NCBI GenBank assembly: GCA_016219015.1
Contig: JACRCL010000009.1
Span: 1-62,023, forward strand
Length of the DNA: 62,023 bases
Source: Deltaproteobacteria bacterium
GTDB taxonomy: Bacteria; Desulfobacterota; GWC2-55-46
Reading direction: 5' to 3'
The position numbers and the translations under genes were made by a program. Shown here piece after piece: positions 4,963-11,011 of the stretch (its first letter is position 1; each line of letters begins with the position of its first letter). The notes under the pieces were generated by a model. The model had not been told where the DNA came from and did not search any database. It saw only the letters and a program-made list of their open reading frames with translations.

Positions 4963-4992
4963 AAAAAAAAGCCCCTCGCTTGCGCGAGAGGC
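4963..4992 (-). terminator. Rho-independent terminator ending tracrRNA
   Basis: The minus strand reads CCTCTCGC-GCAA-GCGAGGGG followed by T8. It forms the 3' hairpin of the tracrRNA and also separates it from the convergent uvrD transcript. Confidence 0.9.
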
Positions 4993-5075
4993 TTTAAGGT
5001 TTACCCCGTTCGGGGCTATCCTGCGAAGCTTTCGCTTCTTATTGTGGAAAGCAGGGCAGGCATTTGTTTGGTATG
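4963..5075 (-). ncRNA. tracrRNA of the type II-C CRISPR system
   Basis: On the minus strand the RNA starts near 5075 and carries the anti-repeat (5041-5073). The 21 nt 5053-5073 match the array repeat perfectly, then a bulge (AAAGCA against TTTGC) and a second duplex (ATTGTGG against GTTGTGG). Three hairpins follow: GAAGC-GAAA-GCTTC (5025-5038), ACCCCGTTCGGGGT-like (5003-5016) and a GC-rich terminator with GCAA loop (4971-4992) running into eight T (4970-4963). Predicted length is about 113 nt. It pairs with the crRNA repeat and is bound by Cas9. The orientation requires the crRNA to be read from the minus strand of the array, which agrees with the promoter in each repeat. Confidence 0.9.
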
Positions 5076-5093
5076 GCATTAAAATAATAGAAT
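5064..5093 (+). promoter_or_regulatory. Candidate cas9 promoter, interlocked with the tracrRNA promoter
   Basis: Plus strand: -35 TTGTTT (5064-5069), 18-bp spacer, -10 TAGAAT (5088-5093). The start near 5100 would give a short leader with AAGGGG (5108-5113) before the ATG at 5118. The -35 lies inside the anti-repeat. Confidence 0.5.
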
Positions 5094-5109
5094 ACGCTGA
5101 GAATGTCAA
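5081..5109 (-). promoter_or_regulatory. tracrRNA promoter
   Basis: Minus strand: -35 TTGACA (5109-5104, perfect consensus), 17-bp spacer, -10 TATTTT (5086-5081). The predicted start at about 5074-5075 lies just upstream of the anti-repeat. The -35 box overlaps the first possible cas9 ATG (5103). Confidence 0.75.
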
Positions 5110-5117
5110 GGGGCAAA

Positions 5118-8069
5118 ATGAAAAATACTGTTTCAACGCTTGGACTCGACATCGGAACCAACTCCATTGGATGGGCTTTGGTCGAGCATAACAACAGCCG
5201 GGAGCCTTCGGGCTTGACCGCATGCGGCTCAAGGATATTCTCCGAGGCGGTTGACCCCAAAACCAATATTCCCAAAAATCAGGCGCGCCGGGCCGCACGT
5301 TCCGCGCGAAAACTCGTTGCGAGACGGAAGATGAGGCGCAATAAAGTGCTCAATCTACTAACTGGAAATGGCTTGCTTCCTGAAGATGCAATCGAGCGCC
5401 AGAGATTATTTACTGATAAATCCTTCGACCCTTATAGGCTCAGGAAGATATCGCTCAACGATAAGCTTTCGCCGCATGAATTAGGAAGGGCATTATTCCA
5501 TTTATCACAGAGGCGCGGCTTCCAGAGCAGCCGGAAAACGTCCTCTAAAGACGAAGGCATGATAAAAAGCGCGATAAGCTCGCTGCGTCAGGAGATGACC
5601 GACACGAAAAGCCGCACATTGGGAGAATTTCTGGCAGAACGGCCCAAAAAGCGGAATCGTTTTACAGACCGAGCCATGTATCAAGAAGAGTTCGAGCTTA
5701 TATGGCGGACGCAGCAAAAATATCATCCCGAACTGCTGAATTCCGCCCTCAAGGTGGCCGTCCATAACGGAATATTCTTCCAGCGCCCTCTAAAACTCCA
5801 GAAAAACCTTGTGGGGAGATGCACCTTCGAGCCTGGACGAAAACGCGCGGCCAGGGCCTTGCTCGAAACTCAAAGGTTCAGAATCCTTCAGGACCTGAAC
5901 CATCTCGCAGTTAAAAACCCTCTCACCCGAGTATTTAGGTCGCTTACAGGCGCGGAGCGTCAAAAGCTGCTGGAGCTTCTTGAGAAGCAAAAAAACCTGA
6001 GTTGGAATAAGGCCCGCTCTGCGTTAAAACTTCATGAAGGAGAAGTTTTTAATCTTGAGGAAGGTAAAAAGAAAGAACTTATCGGCAACCGCACCGAGTA
6101 TGCCCTGCGCTCAGTTCTCGGTGAACATTGGGATAAGATATCGTCGAAGGAACGGAACTCGCTTATTACCGACATGCTTACAATTGATAACGAGAAAGGT
6201 TTCCTCAAACGAATGACAGAGCACTGGGGCTTTGATGCTGAAAAAGCGGAAAAGCTTGCCAAGACTGAACTGGAGCCGGGCTATGCAAGGCTTTCATTTA
6301 AAGCAATAAATAAAGTCCTGCCCTATCTCGAAGAGGGTTTGACTTACGATAAGGCCTGCCTCGCGGCTGGATACGACCACTCCAATAATAACGAGATAAC
6401 GACATCGAAAAGCCTTGGAGAGCCGCCCTCCCTGCGTAACCCCGTTGTGCAGAAAGCGCTCTACGAGACACGCAGAGTCGTAAACGGGATCATCCGCCAG
6501 TACGGCAGGCCCGCGGTCATACGGATAGAGATGGCGCGCGACATGAAGCTGACCCGGAGGCAAAAGACAGAGCTTCAAAAGGAGCAGAAGAACAGGGAAA
6601 AGGCAAACGAGCTGGCGCGGGGGATCCTGCAAAACGAGTTTGGCATCCAAAACCCTTCAAGGGATGATATTCAGAAATACCAGATGTGGAACGAGTGCGG
6701 GAATATCTGTCCATACACGGGTACCGTAATTTCCAAAGAGATGCTCTTTTCACCCGAAGTGGATATAGAGCATATCCTGCCTTACAGCCGCTCACTCGAC
6801 GACTCCTACATGAACAAGACCCTTTGCACAGCTGCCGAGAACCGCTCCATAAAACACAACAGGACGCCTTACGAAGCATATAATGCCGACGGGGAAAAAT
6901 ATCAGGCGATACTCCAGCGTGCAAAAGCCCTCCCACACCCCAAGCGCAGGCGCTTTGAACAGAAGGAGATAGATACGGATAAATTCGTGGAGAGGCAATT
7001 AAACGATACGCGCTATATATGCGTTGAGGTCAAGAGATACCTTCAGCAGACCGGCGCAACCATCGAGGTCAGCAAAGGTGCGGCCACCGCAGCTCTGCGC
7101 AGGCGCTGGAACCTTAATAAAATCCTTTCCGCTGACGGCTCCGGGGAAAAGAACCGCTCGGACCACAGGCATCATGCGATAGACGCCACCGTAATCGCGC
7201 TCACCTCAAGAAGCCTGTTTCAGAAGCTATCGAGGCTTTCGGCAGAAACCGGCGCAAGCTTAAGCGAGCGGGGGTTCCACCTTGATAAGCCGTGGCCTTC
7301 CTTTTATGACGACGTGCGGGGGAAGATAGAAGGCATTATAGTATCCCACGCCTCACGCAGAAAAATAACCGATGCCTTTCATCAGGATACCGCATACGGA
7401 TACATAAATGGGAACGGGTGCTTTGCTTATAGAAAACCGCTGGCGGATTTAAGGACATTGAGCATGGTCGAGGATATAGGCGATTATAAAGTCAGGGAAC
7501 TCGTAAACAAAAGGCTCAATGAATTCAACGGGGATTTCAAAAAAGCCTTCGGCAACCCCGAAAACCCTCTTCTGCATCTGGATGGAAAAACTCCGATAAA
7601 ATCCGTAAGGCTCCATGTAAAAGCGAACGAAGCCTCCATGCACCCCGTAAAAAAAGACGGCAAGGCCTACAAATATTTTAAGCTGGAGAACAACCACCAT
7701 GTCGAGATAATAGAGAACGTCACGACAGGCAAACGGGAAGGCAGATTCGTACCCACAATAGACGCCGCGCGGCGGGCGAGAATAGATAAAAAAACTATCG
7801 TCAAGCGCGACCATGGCCCGGAATGGAAGTTCATCATGTCCCTTTGCATAAATGATATGGTGGAGATTACCGATAAGGACGGGGGAAAAAGGTATTACAG
7901 GGTCAAGGAGATGTCCGGGCCGATAAATAGGATTGTTTTAAGAGATCATCTCGTAACTGCCACGAGCGATAACGCTGGAATCTTGAGGTGCACCCCCAAT
8001 TCCCTGCCGTCATCCTGCAGAAAAATTTCTGTAGATTGCCTCGGAGATGTAATGCCCTGCAACGATTAA
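5118..8069 (+). CDS. cas9: Cas9 RNA-guided DNA endonuclease, compact type II-C
   Basis: 983 aa from ATG 5118, which has AAGGGG 4 nt upstream; the ATG at 5103 has no such site. Domains in order: RuvC-I (LGLDIGTNSIGWALV, catalytic D11), Arg-rich bridge helix (about residues 52-75), REC lobe (about 80-450), RuvC-II (IRIEMARD, E471), HNH (EVDIEHILPYSRS, H552; later NKTL and ENRS asparagines), RuvC-III (DHRHHAIDATVIAL, H686 and D689), then a C-terminal PAM-interacting region. All catalytic residues are present. Length resembles C. jejuni Cas9 (984 aa). It uses crRNA:tracrRNA to cut foreign DNA. No cas4 or csn2 is nearby, hence II-C. Codon use looks more AT-rich than in neighbours, consistent with transfer. 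Confidence 0.97.
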   Translation: MKNTVSTLGLDIGTNSIGWALVEHNNSREPSGLTACGSRIFSEAVDPKTNIPKNQARRAARSARKLVARRKMRRNKVLNLLTGNGLLPEDAIERQRLFTDKSFDPYRLRKISLNDKLSPHELGRALFHLSQRRGFQSSRKTSSKDEGMIKSAISSLRQEMTDTKSRTLGEFLAERPKKRNRFTDRAMYQEEFELIWRTQQKYHPELLNSALKVAVHNGIFFQRPLKLQKNLVGRCTFEPGRKRAARALLETQRFRILQDLNHLAVKNPLTRVFRSLTGAERQKLLELLEKQKNLSWNKARSALKLHEGEVFNLEEGKKKELIGNRTEYALRSVLGEHWDKISSKERNSLITDMLTIDNEKGFLKRMTEHWGFDAEKAEKLAKTELEPGYARLSFKAINKVLPYLEEGLTYDKACLAAGYDHSNNNEITTSKSLGEPPSLRNPVVQKALYETRRVVNGIIRQYGRPAVIRIEMARDMKLTRRQKTELQKEQKNREKANELARGILQNEFGIQNPSRDDIQKYQMWNECGNICPYTGTVISKEMLFSPEVDIEHILPYSRSLDDSYMNKTLCTAAENRSIKHNRTPYEAYNADGEKYQAILQRAKALPHPKRRRFEQKEIDTDKFVERQLNDTRYICVEVKRYLQQTGATIEVSKGAATAALRRRWNLNKILSADGSGEKNRSDHRHHAIDATVIALTSRSLFQKLSRLSAETGASLSERGFHLDKPWPSFYDDVRGKIEGIIVSHASRRKITDAFHQDTAYGYINGNGCFAYRKPLADLRTLSMVEDIGDYKVRELVNKRLNEFNGDFKKAFGNPENPLLHLDGKTPIKSVRLHVKANEASMHPVKKDGKAYKYFKLENNHHVEIIENVTTGKREGRFVPTIDAARRARIDKKTIVKRDHGPEWKFIMSLCINDMVEITDKDGGKRYYRVKEMSGPINRIVLRDHLVTATSDNAGILRCTPNSLPSSCRKISVDCLGDVMPCND

Positions 8070-8111
8070 GAAAACTTGCGCGCCGGGATTTGTCTGGTAT
8101 CCTTATCTGGC

Positions 8112-8999
8112 ATGATCAAAAGGGTGGTGGAAATAAGCGCCCCCGCGCGGCTGGCCCTTAAGAACCGTCAGATGTCGATCGAGCGGGAGGGGTATGACCC
8201 TGTTACGGTCCCGGTCGAGGACATCGGCTTATTGATATTGGACCACCCCGCCATCAGCCATACTCAGGGTCTCCTTGCCGCCTGTTTTGAGAATAACGTC
8301 GCCGTGCTCTTATGCGGCACCAGGCGCCTGCCGGGCGCCGTCCTTACGCCGCTTGAGGGCAACAGCCTGCAAAGCAGGACCATAGCACAGCAGGTCCAAA
8401 TCACAAGGCCCGTTCGCAAGCGCCTCTGGCAGGCGATAATCAGGGCGAAGATACGCCAGCAGGCAACTGTCTTAAGCCATGCGGCGGAAGGCGAAAACCC
8501 TCTTTTCGCCTATGCCGCGAGGGTAAAAAGCGGCGACCCTGACAACATCGAGGCTCAGGCCGCGCGCATTTACTGGCAAAGGCTCTTCGGCAAGGACTTC
8601 CGCCGTGACCCGGATACCCCCGGCATCAACAGCCTGCTTAACTATGGCTACGCCGTTATGCGGGCGGCGGTTGCCCGCGCGTTGGTCGGCACCGGCCTTC
8701 ATCCCTCCTTGGGGATACACCACCATAACCAATACAACAGCTTCTGCCTTGCGGATGACCTGATAGAGCCTCTTAGGCCGGCTGTAGACCTCAGGGTTTA
8801 CATGATCGGCAAAATGACCCCGCCAATTGAACTGGAGCTTACTCCTGAAAACAAGCGCGCGCTATTGGAAGTATTAAGCTGGGACTTTCTGATTAACGGC
8901 GGACGCTTGCCTTTAATGCCTGCGCTGCACCACTATGCCGCAAGCGTCCGGAAGGCAATATGCGGTGAGGTTGAAAAAGTGGAGATACCCTGTCTATGA
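8112..8999 (+). CDS. cas1: Cas1 spacer integrase
   Basis: 295 aa. The start MIKRVVEISAPARL is the usual type II Cas1 beginning; reading further upstream (TTG 8076) adds residues not seen in the family. Central helical domain with HAAEGENPLFAY (acidic catalytic site region), INSLLNYGYAVMRA, and GLHPSLGIHHHNQYNSFCLADDLIEPLRP with the conserved His and Asp metal ligands. With Cas2 it captures prespacers and inserts them at the leader end of the array. It begins 42 nt after cas9 and overlaps cas2 by 4 nt (ATGA), so the three genes form one operon. Confidence 0.96.
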   Translation: MIKRVVEISAPARLALKNRQMSIEREGYDPVTVPVEDIGLLILDHPAISHTQGLLAACFENNVAVLLCGTRRLPGAVLTPLEGNSLQSRTIAQQVQITRPVRKRLWQAIIRAKIRQQATVLSHAAEGENPLFAYAARVKSGDPDNIEAQAARIYWQRLFGKDFRRDPDTPGINSLLNYGYAVMRAAVARALVGTGLHPSLGIHHHNQYNSFCLADDLIEPLRPAVDLRVYMIGKMTPPIELELTPENKRALLEVLSWDFLINGGRLPLMPALHHYAASVRKAICGEVEKVEIPCL

Positions 9000-9325
9000 G
9001 CTTTGGAGGGTTCCGTAGCATGTGGGTGATAACAATGTTCGACCTGCCTACCGACACCAAGGCGGCCCGCAAGGCTTATCACGATTTCCGTGAGGCACTG
9101 CTGAAGGACGGCTTTGTCATGCTCCAGTTCTCGGTCTATGCCCGCCACTGCCCGAGCGAAGAAAACGCAGTTGTACACGAGACCCGCGTAAAAGCTGTTC
9201 TGCCGGGTGACGGGGAGGTACGGATGTTGACCATAACCGATAAGCAGTTTGAGCGTATGAAGGTTTTTTATGGAAAGATACGGAAGGCTACAGAAAAAGC
9301 GCCCGAACAAATCAGTTTTTTCTGA
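8996..9325 (+). CDS. cas2: Cas2 adaptation protein
   Basis: 109 aa, ferredoxin-like fold. The WVITMFDLPTDTKAARKAYHDFR start has the conserved Asp of strand 1 (MFDLP), and the C-terminal EQISFF tail fits type II Cas2. It is translationally coupled to cas1 through the ATGA overlap. It bridges two Cas1 dimers in the integration complex. Its last ~30 bases also form the stem of a minus-strand terminator, so the gene end doubles as the stop signal for the array transcript coming the other way. Confidence 0.95.
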   Translation: MSFGGFRSMWVITMFDLPTDTKAARKAYHDFREALLKDGFVMLQFSVYARHCPSEENAVVHETRVKAVLPGDGEVRMLTITDKQFERMKVFYGKIRKATEKAPEQISFF

Positions 9326-9342
9326 CCTGTCCGGGCGCTTTC
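9292..9342 (-). terminator. Terminator for the CRISPR array transcript, inside the 3' end of cas2
   Basis: A 10-bp perfect stem (AAAGCGCCCG / CGGGCGCTTT, 9296-9305 with 9332-9341) surrounds an inner TCAG/CTGA pair. On the minus strand it is followed by TTTTTCTG (9298-9291). On the plus strand the stem is followed by CACG and an A-run, not T, so it should terminate only minus-strand transcription. Confidence 0.7.
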
Positions 9343-9373
9343 ACGAAAAAAAACACTACCTTGGAGCTAAGCC
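9343..9373. promoter_or_regulatory. Probable CRISPR leader (integration end)
   Basis: 31 bp between the cas2 terminator and the first repeat, with an A8 run and ending GAGCTAAGCC. It is assigned as leader because the opposite array end has the degenerate repeat, and leaders usually sit next to the cas genes. The bases beside repeat 1 resemble the 6-nt spacer 4 (TAAGCC versus TTAGCC). Confidence 0.45.
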
Positions 9374-10085
9374 ATTATACCAAACAAATGCCTGCCCGCA
9401 AACCACAACTAGTTATATGTCTGGCTCCCTGAAGCTACCATTATACCAAACAAATGCCTGCCCGCAAACCACAACTGCAAGGCTGCGGCTCCTCCTGACA
9501 GATTAATTATACCAAACAAATGCCTGCCCGCAAACCACAACTATCTAAAAATTTTAAAGTTAAAAAATTTGATTATACCAAACAAATGCCTGCCCGCAAA
9601 CCACAACTTAGCCATTATACCAAACAAATGCCTGCCCGCAAACCACAACAGACTTAGAAAGCAGGACCTGGATCTTCCTATTATACCAAACAAATGCCTG
9701 CCCGCAAACCACAACTTATAAGGCTCAGGGAGAGTTTCAAGATGTATTATACCAAACAAATGCCTGCCCGCAAACCACAACAACCTTTTCGTTGCTATGT
9801 ATGCGACAAGAATTATACCAAACAAATGCCTGCCCGCAAACCACAACTGATCCCAGAAGGGCTTGTAAGTATCAAAATTATACCAAACAAATGCCTGCCC
9901 GCAAACCACAACATATAACCAGCATCAGATTATACCAAACAAATGCCTGCCCGCAAACCACAACTGAAGAGTCAGTCCAGGTGGTCGAGGCCAGATTATA
10001 CCAAACAAATGCCTGCCCGCAAACCACAACGTCCACGGCGTTCGTGTCTATCGTGATTATATTATACCAAACAAATGCCTGCCCG
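9374..10085 (-). CRISPR. Type II-C CRISPR array, 12 repeats and 11 spacers, read on the minus strand
   Basis: Eleven identical 36-bp repeats start at 9374, 9440, 9506, 9572, 9614, 9680, 9746, 9812, 9877, 9929 and 9995. A twelfth repeat at 10061-10085 keeps only 25 bp. In crRNA sense the repeat begins GTTGTGGTTTGC and ends TTTGGTATAAT. Eight spacers are 30 nt, plus one of 29 nt (9848-9876); two are anomalous: 9608-9613 (6 nt) and 9913-9928 (16 nt). The minus strand is the sense strand because tracrRNA pairs with that form and because the repeat end carries an extended -10 box, which puts a start site 6-7 nt into each spacer and leaves a ~23-24 nt guide. The identical repeats suggest a young or homogenised array. 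Confidence 0.97.
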
Positions 10086-10115
10086 GATTATAGAATTATC
10101 CCCCTCCCCCTGCCC

Positions 10116-10144
10116 TTGACTTCCGGCGAAAAACTTATTATTAT
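10116..10144 (+). promoter_or_regulatory. galU promoter
   Basis: -35 TTGACT (10116-10121), 17-bp spacer, -10 TATTAT (10139-10144). The expected start site falls on or next to the ATG at 10151, and no Shine-Dalgarno is visible, so a leaderless mRNA is predicted. Confidence 0.6.
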
Positions 10145-10150
10145 CCGTTG

Positions 10151-11011
10151 ATGAAGATTAAGAAGGCCGTCTTCCCCGCGGCCGGTTTCGGCACCCGGTT
10201 CCTGCCGGCCACAAAGGCGATACCCAAAGAGATGCTCCCGCTGGTCGACAAGCCCCTCATCCAGTACGTGGTCGAGGAGGCGAAGGCGTCCGGGCTCGAG
10301 GAGATGATAATCGTCACGGGCATGGGCAAGACCGCCATAGAGGACCACTTCGACACGTCCTTCGAGCTCGAGATACTCCTCAAGGAGAGGGGCAAGGACG
10401 AGCTCCTCAAGATGATAAAGGAAGTCTCCGGGCTGGTCCACTTCGCCTACACGAGGCAGAAAAAGCCCCTTGGCCTCGGCCACGCGATATCGATAACCAG
10501 AAACCTCATCAATAACGAGCCCTTTGCCGTATTCCTCGGAGATGATATAATAGATTCGAGGGTCCCGGCCATGAGGCAGATGCTCAAGGTATACAAGGAC
10601 TACGGCACGAGCATACTGGCCGTCCAGCGGGTCCCCCGGTCTCAAGCTCACCTTTACGGCGTGATAAAGGCCGAGAAGGTCGCGCCGAGGGTCTACAGGG
10701 TCCTGGACCTGGTGGAAAAACCGAAGGGCACGCCCCCCTCGAACCTCGCCATCATCGGGCGGTACATACTCTCGCCCGGCATCTTCGGCGCGCTTGAGGA
10801 GACAAAGCCGGGCAAGGGCGGGGAGATACAGCTCACCGACGCCCTCAAGATACTCGCCGGGAAAGAGGAAATATACGCCTACGAGTTCGAGGGCAACAGG
10901 TACGACGCCGGCGACAAGCTCGGGTTCCTGAAGGCCAACGTGACGCTGGCCCTCAAAAGGCCCGATATCAAGAACGACTTCAGGAAATTCCTCAAGGGCT
11001 TGAAGTTCTGA
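10151..11011 (+). CDS. galU: UTP-glucose-1-phosphate uridylyltransferase
   Basis: 286 aa, full length. Makes UDP-glucose from UTP and glucose-1-phosphate for polysaccharide and glycan synthesis. The nucleotide-binding start KAVFPAAGFGTRFLPATKAIPKEM is diagnostic of GalU, followed by VDKPLIQYVVEEA, a GDD metal site (FLGDDIID) and the VEKP segment. The C-terminal YEFEGNRYDAGDKLGFL is also typical. The gene directly follows the truncated end of the CRISPR array, and its promoter lies in the 65 bp between. It may supply sugar nucleotides for the polysaccharide system at 48.6-52.9 kb (inference). Confidence 0.95.
   Translation: MKIKKAVFPAAGFGTRFLPATKAIPKEMLPLVDKPLIQYVVEEAKASGLEEMIIVTGMGKTAIEDHFDTSFELEILLKERGKDELLKMIKEVSGLVHFAYTRQKKPLGLGHAISITRNLINNEPFAVFLGDDIIDSRVPAMRQMLKVYKDYGTSILAVQRVPRSQAHLYGVIKAEKVAPRVYRVLDLVEKPKGTPPSNLAIIGRYILSPGIFGALEETKPGKGGEIQLTDALKILAGKEEIYAYEFEGNRYDAGDKLGFLKANVTLALKRPDIKNDFRKFLKGLKF

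Follow-up and report, generated by a model that had tools for sequence, protein, structure and literature searches.

The type II-C CRISPR locus in the window (the whole 62,023-nt stretch of DNA analysed) very probably transcribes its crRNAs from promoters carried by the repeats themselves, the 3′ end of each repeat acting as an extended -10 sigma-70 promoter that fires into its own spacer. The sequences, their orientation, the tracrRNA, the absence of a recognisable outside promoter and the comparative conservation were seen directly, and transcription, start sites and processing are predicted from them. This mode of expression is already established for II-C systems, and the window locus is one more case, in which the repeat carries a nearly perfect promoter. 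The least known element of the comparison, and the more interesting by-product, is an apparent sigma-matched promoter swap in Bacteroidota.

Layout of the locus and crRNA strand

The features of the locus are as follows.

4963–5074, minus strand: tracrRNA with antirepeat (a perfect 21-nt match to repeat nt 13–33), lower stem and nexus-like hairpins
4968–4995, minus strand: intrinsic terminator of the tracrRNA
5081–5109, minus strand: tracrRNA promoter, TTGACA-17-TATTTT, predicted start 5074
5118–8069, plus strand: cas9 (II-C), probably starting at 5118 in a frame open from 5103 (TIGR01865, 731 bits)
8076–8999, plus strand: cas1 (type II; TIGR03639, 284 bits)
8996–9325, plus strand: cas2
9296–9341: hairpin with 20-nt arms and T runs on both strands (dG -36.5 kcal/mol, z -4.3), lying between cas2 and the array and probably terminating transcripts from either side
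9342–9373, minus strand: leader side, cas-proximal and transcriptionally downstream, the inferred spacer-acquisition site
9374–10085, minus strand: CRISPR array of 11 full 36-nt repeats, one truncated repeat and 11 spacers
9374–9382, minus strand: extended -10 box TGGTATAAT of the cas-proximal repeat
Starts 9440, 9506, 9572, 9614, 9680, 9746, 9812, 9877, 9929, 9995 and 10061, minus strand: the same box in the other repeats
9608–9613, minus strand: 6-nt spacer GGCTAA, close in sequence to the leader start GGCTTA; a guide is impossible
9913–9928, minus strand: 16-nt spacer, allowing a guide of only ~10 nt
10061–10085, minus strand: first repeat in transcription order, truncated, with the 5′ 11 nt replaced and the 3′ 25 nt and box intact

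The cas9-cas1-cas2 system stands alone between a uvrD-like helicase gene upstream and galU downstream, and csn2 and cas4 are absent from this interval. With the divergent tracrRNA and the antisense array, these genes make up a minimal but complete type II-C system. Cas9 is compact (983–988 aa), the reading frames of Cas9, Cas1 and Cas2 are intact, and an RNase III gene is present in the genome. The array is the only one with this repeat among the contigs that make up the genome. Within the phylum, few genomes have a type II Cas1 that scores above the cut-off (6 of 395).

The crRNA sense is assigned to the minus strand because the antirepeat, promoter and terminator of the tracrRNA, besides the box, all point that way; deduced from the antirepeat, the array would run antisense to the cas genes. 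The tracrRNA lies upstream of cas9 on the minus strand, its predicted start coincides with nt 1 of the antirepeat, and its lower stem is CCACAAT. In Campylobacter jejuni, by contrast, the tracrRNA lies downstream of the array (PMC4607530).

A consensus scan of the minus strand over 9280–10400 found no sigma-70-like site upstream of the array. The best such site near its upstream end, TTGACT-17-TATTAT at 10116–10154, is on the plus strand and was assigned to galU. The start predicted from this site falls at or near the galU start codon, which suggests a leaderless mRNA or a misassigned start. At the other end of the array, the hairpin between cas2 and the leader, which a simple terminator scan missed, can probably end transcripts of the cas operon as well as those of the array. 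It overlaps the cas2 stop codon, and similar sequence is found in four relatives (L020, L011, L019 and L194).

The terminal box and predicted crRNA starts

The 11 full repeats are mutually identical and read GTTGTGGTTTGCGGGCAGGCATTTGTTTGGTATAAT in crRNA sense (minus strand). Their last nine bases, TGGTATAAT, form a perfect extended -10 that is also kept in the truncated copy, and the sequence-only reading that every repeat ends in TGn-TATAAT thus holds for every one of the 12 repeats, read on the crRNA strand. In the window, TGNTATAAT occurs 15 times, 12 of them at repeat ends, against 0.58 expected from dinucleotide shuffles (maximum of 3 among 100 shuffles). The 12 boxes are copies of one repeat and therefore count as one observation rather than twelve; the shuffle-based rate gives a probability of ~1/10,000 that one 36-nt sequence contains the TGNTATAAT 9-mer on a given strand. 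The promoter scan showed no -35 element at 16–18 nt spacing within the repeat and called no minus-strand promoter.

Placing the last T of the box at -7 puts the predicted start at nt 7 of the spacer, so that a 30-nt spacer would contribute 24 nt of guide. The start 6–7 nt into each spacer and the ~23–24-nt guide proposed earlier are thus in the right register, and the start is a likely one, but the scheme does not extend to the whole array. The spacer lengths from the cas-proximal end are 30, 30, 30, 6, 30, 30, 30, 29, 16, 30 and 30 nt, and the units with 6 and 16 nt cannot yield a guide of that length from their own start. Purines are not in excess at spacer nt 6–8 among 727 spacers, nor need they be.

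The proposed mechanism runs as follows. RNA polymerase would start ~7 nt inside each spacer and produce a crRNA made of a ~24-nt guide and the next repeat, whose repeat part would pair with the tracrRNA so that RNase III could trim the 3′ side. Read-through transcripts would terminate at the hairpin ahead of cas2. New spacers would be inserted at the cas2 end, transcriptionally downstream of the existing ones, so that promoters carried by the repeats would serve every new spacer. That spacers are gained at the 3′ end is already known (PMC12638026); here it is suggested by the similar cas-proximal flanks of relatives and by the cas-proximal repeats, none of which is mutated among the arrays analysed. 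The GGCTAA spacer, three spacers away from the cas-proximal end, may be the relic of a slippage event that duplicated the newest repeat with some leader, and would then mark the acquisition end.

Repeat-embedded promoters were reportedly described for the type II-C system of Neisseria meningitidis by Zhang et al. in 2013, and the sequence-only reading had proposed them here by that analogy, which proves apt: strand, box and register are all correct. The two systems share the cas9-cas1-cas2 set, an antisense array, 36-nt repeats with a 3′ extended -10, and 30-nt spacers with ~24-nt guides (the guide length being predicted here), and differ in the repeat body and in the box, which is TGCTACAAT in Neisseria and TGGTATAAT here. 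The box is indeed closer to consensus than that of Neisseria, as had been claimed, but it is not unique in this: the repeats of Haemophilus parainfluenzae and Clostridium perfringens, which belong to other taxa and differ in the remainder of the repeat, end in TGCTATAAT with the full TGnTATAAT (Table 1, PMC4607530). Pearson et al. 2015 extended the pattern to II-C repeats generally, describing a gnTAnaaT box at their 3′ end (PMC4607530), and both dRNA-seq and 5′ RACE have been published for relatives (PMC3656092; PMC4607530). The C. jejuni system shares the -10 box in the 3′ part of the repeat and the start within each spacer, predicted here and mapped there by dRNA-seq, and still uses RNase III (PMC3656092).

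This last system bears on the question of the dominant route. The internal promoters could be a minor supplement, with most crRNAs derived from read-through RNA that is cut by RNase III and trimmed in the II-A style; this overlaps with the preferred explanation, from which it differs in which route prevails, and we consider it unlikely. The RNase III gene, the perfect 21-bp repeat:antirepeat stem, a good substrate for that enzyme, and the two short-spacer units that lack a guide from their own start are all in keeping with it. The starts seen in each C. jejuni spacer (PMC3656092) argue against it, as does the first-transcribed repeat, which partly lacks the sequence needed for pairing with the tracrRNA.

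Conservation of the repeat ends

The window repeat was compared with those of Cas9 relatives from many phyla, giving 45 distinct II-C repeats, all from arrays antisense to the cas genes. T-12 and A-9 are invariant (45/45), and A-11 and T-7 are each present in 44; at -10, 33 repeats have C and 6 have T. A close parallel is a groundwater Deltaproteobacteria MAG (L020, JACRNI010000106), whose Cas9 is 66% identical and whose repeat matches at 34 of 36 positions, with the same box and a first repeat truncated in the same manner; its array differs in having 24 repeats and different spacers. Another locus of the window's own family (L213, G019) has a II-C repeat that ends in TACACC, without T at -7 and without the motif.

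The same comparison bears on a second alternative, that the repeat 3′ end is kept for integration and tracrRNA pairing, that its likeness to a -10 is a by-product and that a single precursor is made from an outside promoter. All 45 repeats have A-9 as the mirror of T3 at the opposite repeat end, and a C at -10 is usually matched by G4, as recognition of the repeat ends by the integrase would predict; in most of the loci compared the antirepeat also extends to the box. T-12 and the terminal T-7, however, break this symmetry in the direction of the promoter, and II-A repeats end in C (PMC4607530). The conflict at -10 is mostly settled in favour of symmetry (TACACT in 23 repeats, TACAAT in 7), whereas the full TATAAT is found in the window and two other repeats of this set, the window and its close relatives having TATAAT where most II-C repeats have TACACT. 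The window antirepeat ends inside the box, after the TAT of TATAAT, and pairing with the tracrRNA therefore does not account for the last three bases. The consensus scan gave no outside promoter, and the motif is lost in Bacteroidota that still have Cas1 and a tracrRNA (see below). Integration and pairing as the whole explanation are thus improbable, and the repeat-borne promoter remains the preferred one. We read the repeat ends as meeting two overlapping demands, those of the integrase and those of a promoter, and the 3′ end is likely also under selection for integrase recognition and tracrRNA pairing.

Of 87 arrays whose cas-distal end is visible, 31 have a degenerate first-transcribed repeat, like that of the window. 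Most of these (27) have lost one continuous stretch at the 5′ side, two (L143, L145) have apparent 1-nt indels and two (L158, L164) a few scattered changes. The box determinants are intact in all 24 flagged first repeats of 36 nt. Truncated first repeats are not new, since Feussner et al. 2025 reported that the oldest II-C repeat is mutated in its first 15 nt and that the repeat must keep its promoter (PMC12080349). The truncation does not prove selection on the box, because erosion from the outside in could by itself explain the truncated repeats, and because of a detection limit of ~9 nt. One terminal repeat outside the flagged set (L079) has a damaged box. The first-transcribed repeats of L058 and L168 carry a C to T change at -10 that brings the box nearer to consensus (TATACT and TATAAT, respectively).

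Least probable is a silent or decaying locus with fossil boxes, for which the 6- and 16-nt spacers and the lack of convincing protospacers in phage records and IMG/VR could be cited, but the intact Cas9, Cas1 and Cas2 frames, 11 identical repeats and intact tracrRNA promoter and terminator speak against it. An 18-nt protospacer match in L215 was rejected, the rest of the spacer being unmatched.

A possible link between repeat promoters and the host sigma factor

The housekeeping sigma factor of Bacteroidota recognises a different box. After further arrays from three phyla were added to the set of Cas9 relatives, repeats ending in TAnAnT made up 67 of 75 distinct non-Bacteroidota repeats and 6 of 27 from Bacteroidota (Fisher 2e-10), or 28/34 against 4/20 when counted by clusters (9e-6). 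The end is missing in 8 of the 75 non-Bacteroidota repeats, among which the full TATAAT is uncommon (3/75), and is retained, as an exception, in the Balneola-like repeats (L066, L147, L155 and L158).

A box that resembles TAnnTTTG, with 5 or more of 6 positions matching, starts at nt 20–25 in 12 of 20 Bacteroidota clusters, compared with 1.8 ± 1.3 in shuffles and 2/34 clusters in other phyla, and many Bacteroidota repeats have TTG at nt 2–4, 17–19 nt upstream of it. A TTG in the Flavobacterium columnare repeat was already noted by Hoikkala et al. (PMC8092290). As a control, an exact TAnnTTTG box often precedes the antirepeat in the same loci (L216, L220, L223, L224, L228, L230, L231 and L232), and L072 and L066 have TTTG-N19-TAnnTTTG. 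In Bacteroidota first repeats, the eroded part covers the putative -33 TTG. The Bacteroidota II-C repeats L136, L139–L141, L143–L146, L148–L150, L152, L153, L166 and L167, many of them 46–47 nt long, lack the terminal -10 and have TAnnTTTG-like boxes near nt 20–25 with TTG at nt 2–4.

The II-C embedded promoter may accordingly be tuned to the host housekeeping sigma factor, with a TAnAnT end where that factor reads TATAAT-type boxes and, in Bacteroidota, usually the loss of that end and a TTG-N17–19-TAnnTTTG-like element placed earlier in an often 46–47-nt repeat; we hold the chances for and against to be even. If true, it would be a natural experiment in which promoter function, besides integration, shapes CRISPR repeats. 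The comparison suggests, as a general rule, that II-C repeats are doubly coded, for integration and for the host sigma factor, which may help to explain the orientation errors of repeat-based tools on II-C arrays and the statement of the Riemerella authors that the repeat has no promoter (PMC5006608). In practical terms, the repeat sequence gives the strand and crRNA start, here for a Cas9 of ~983 aa with a clearly predicted tracrRNA.
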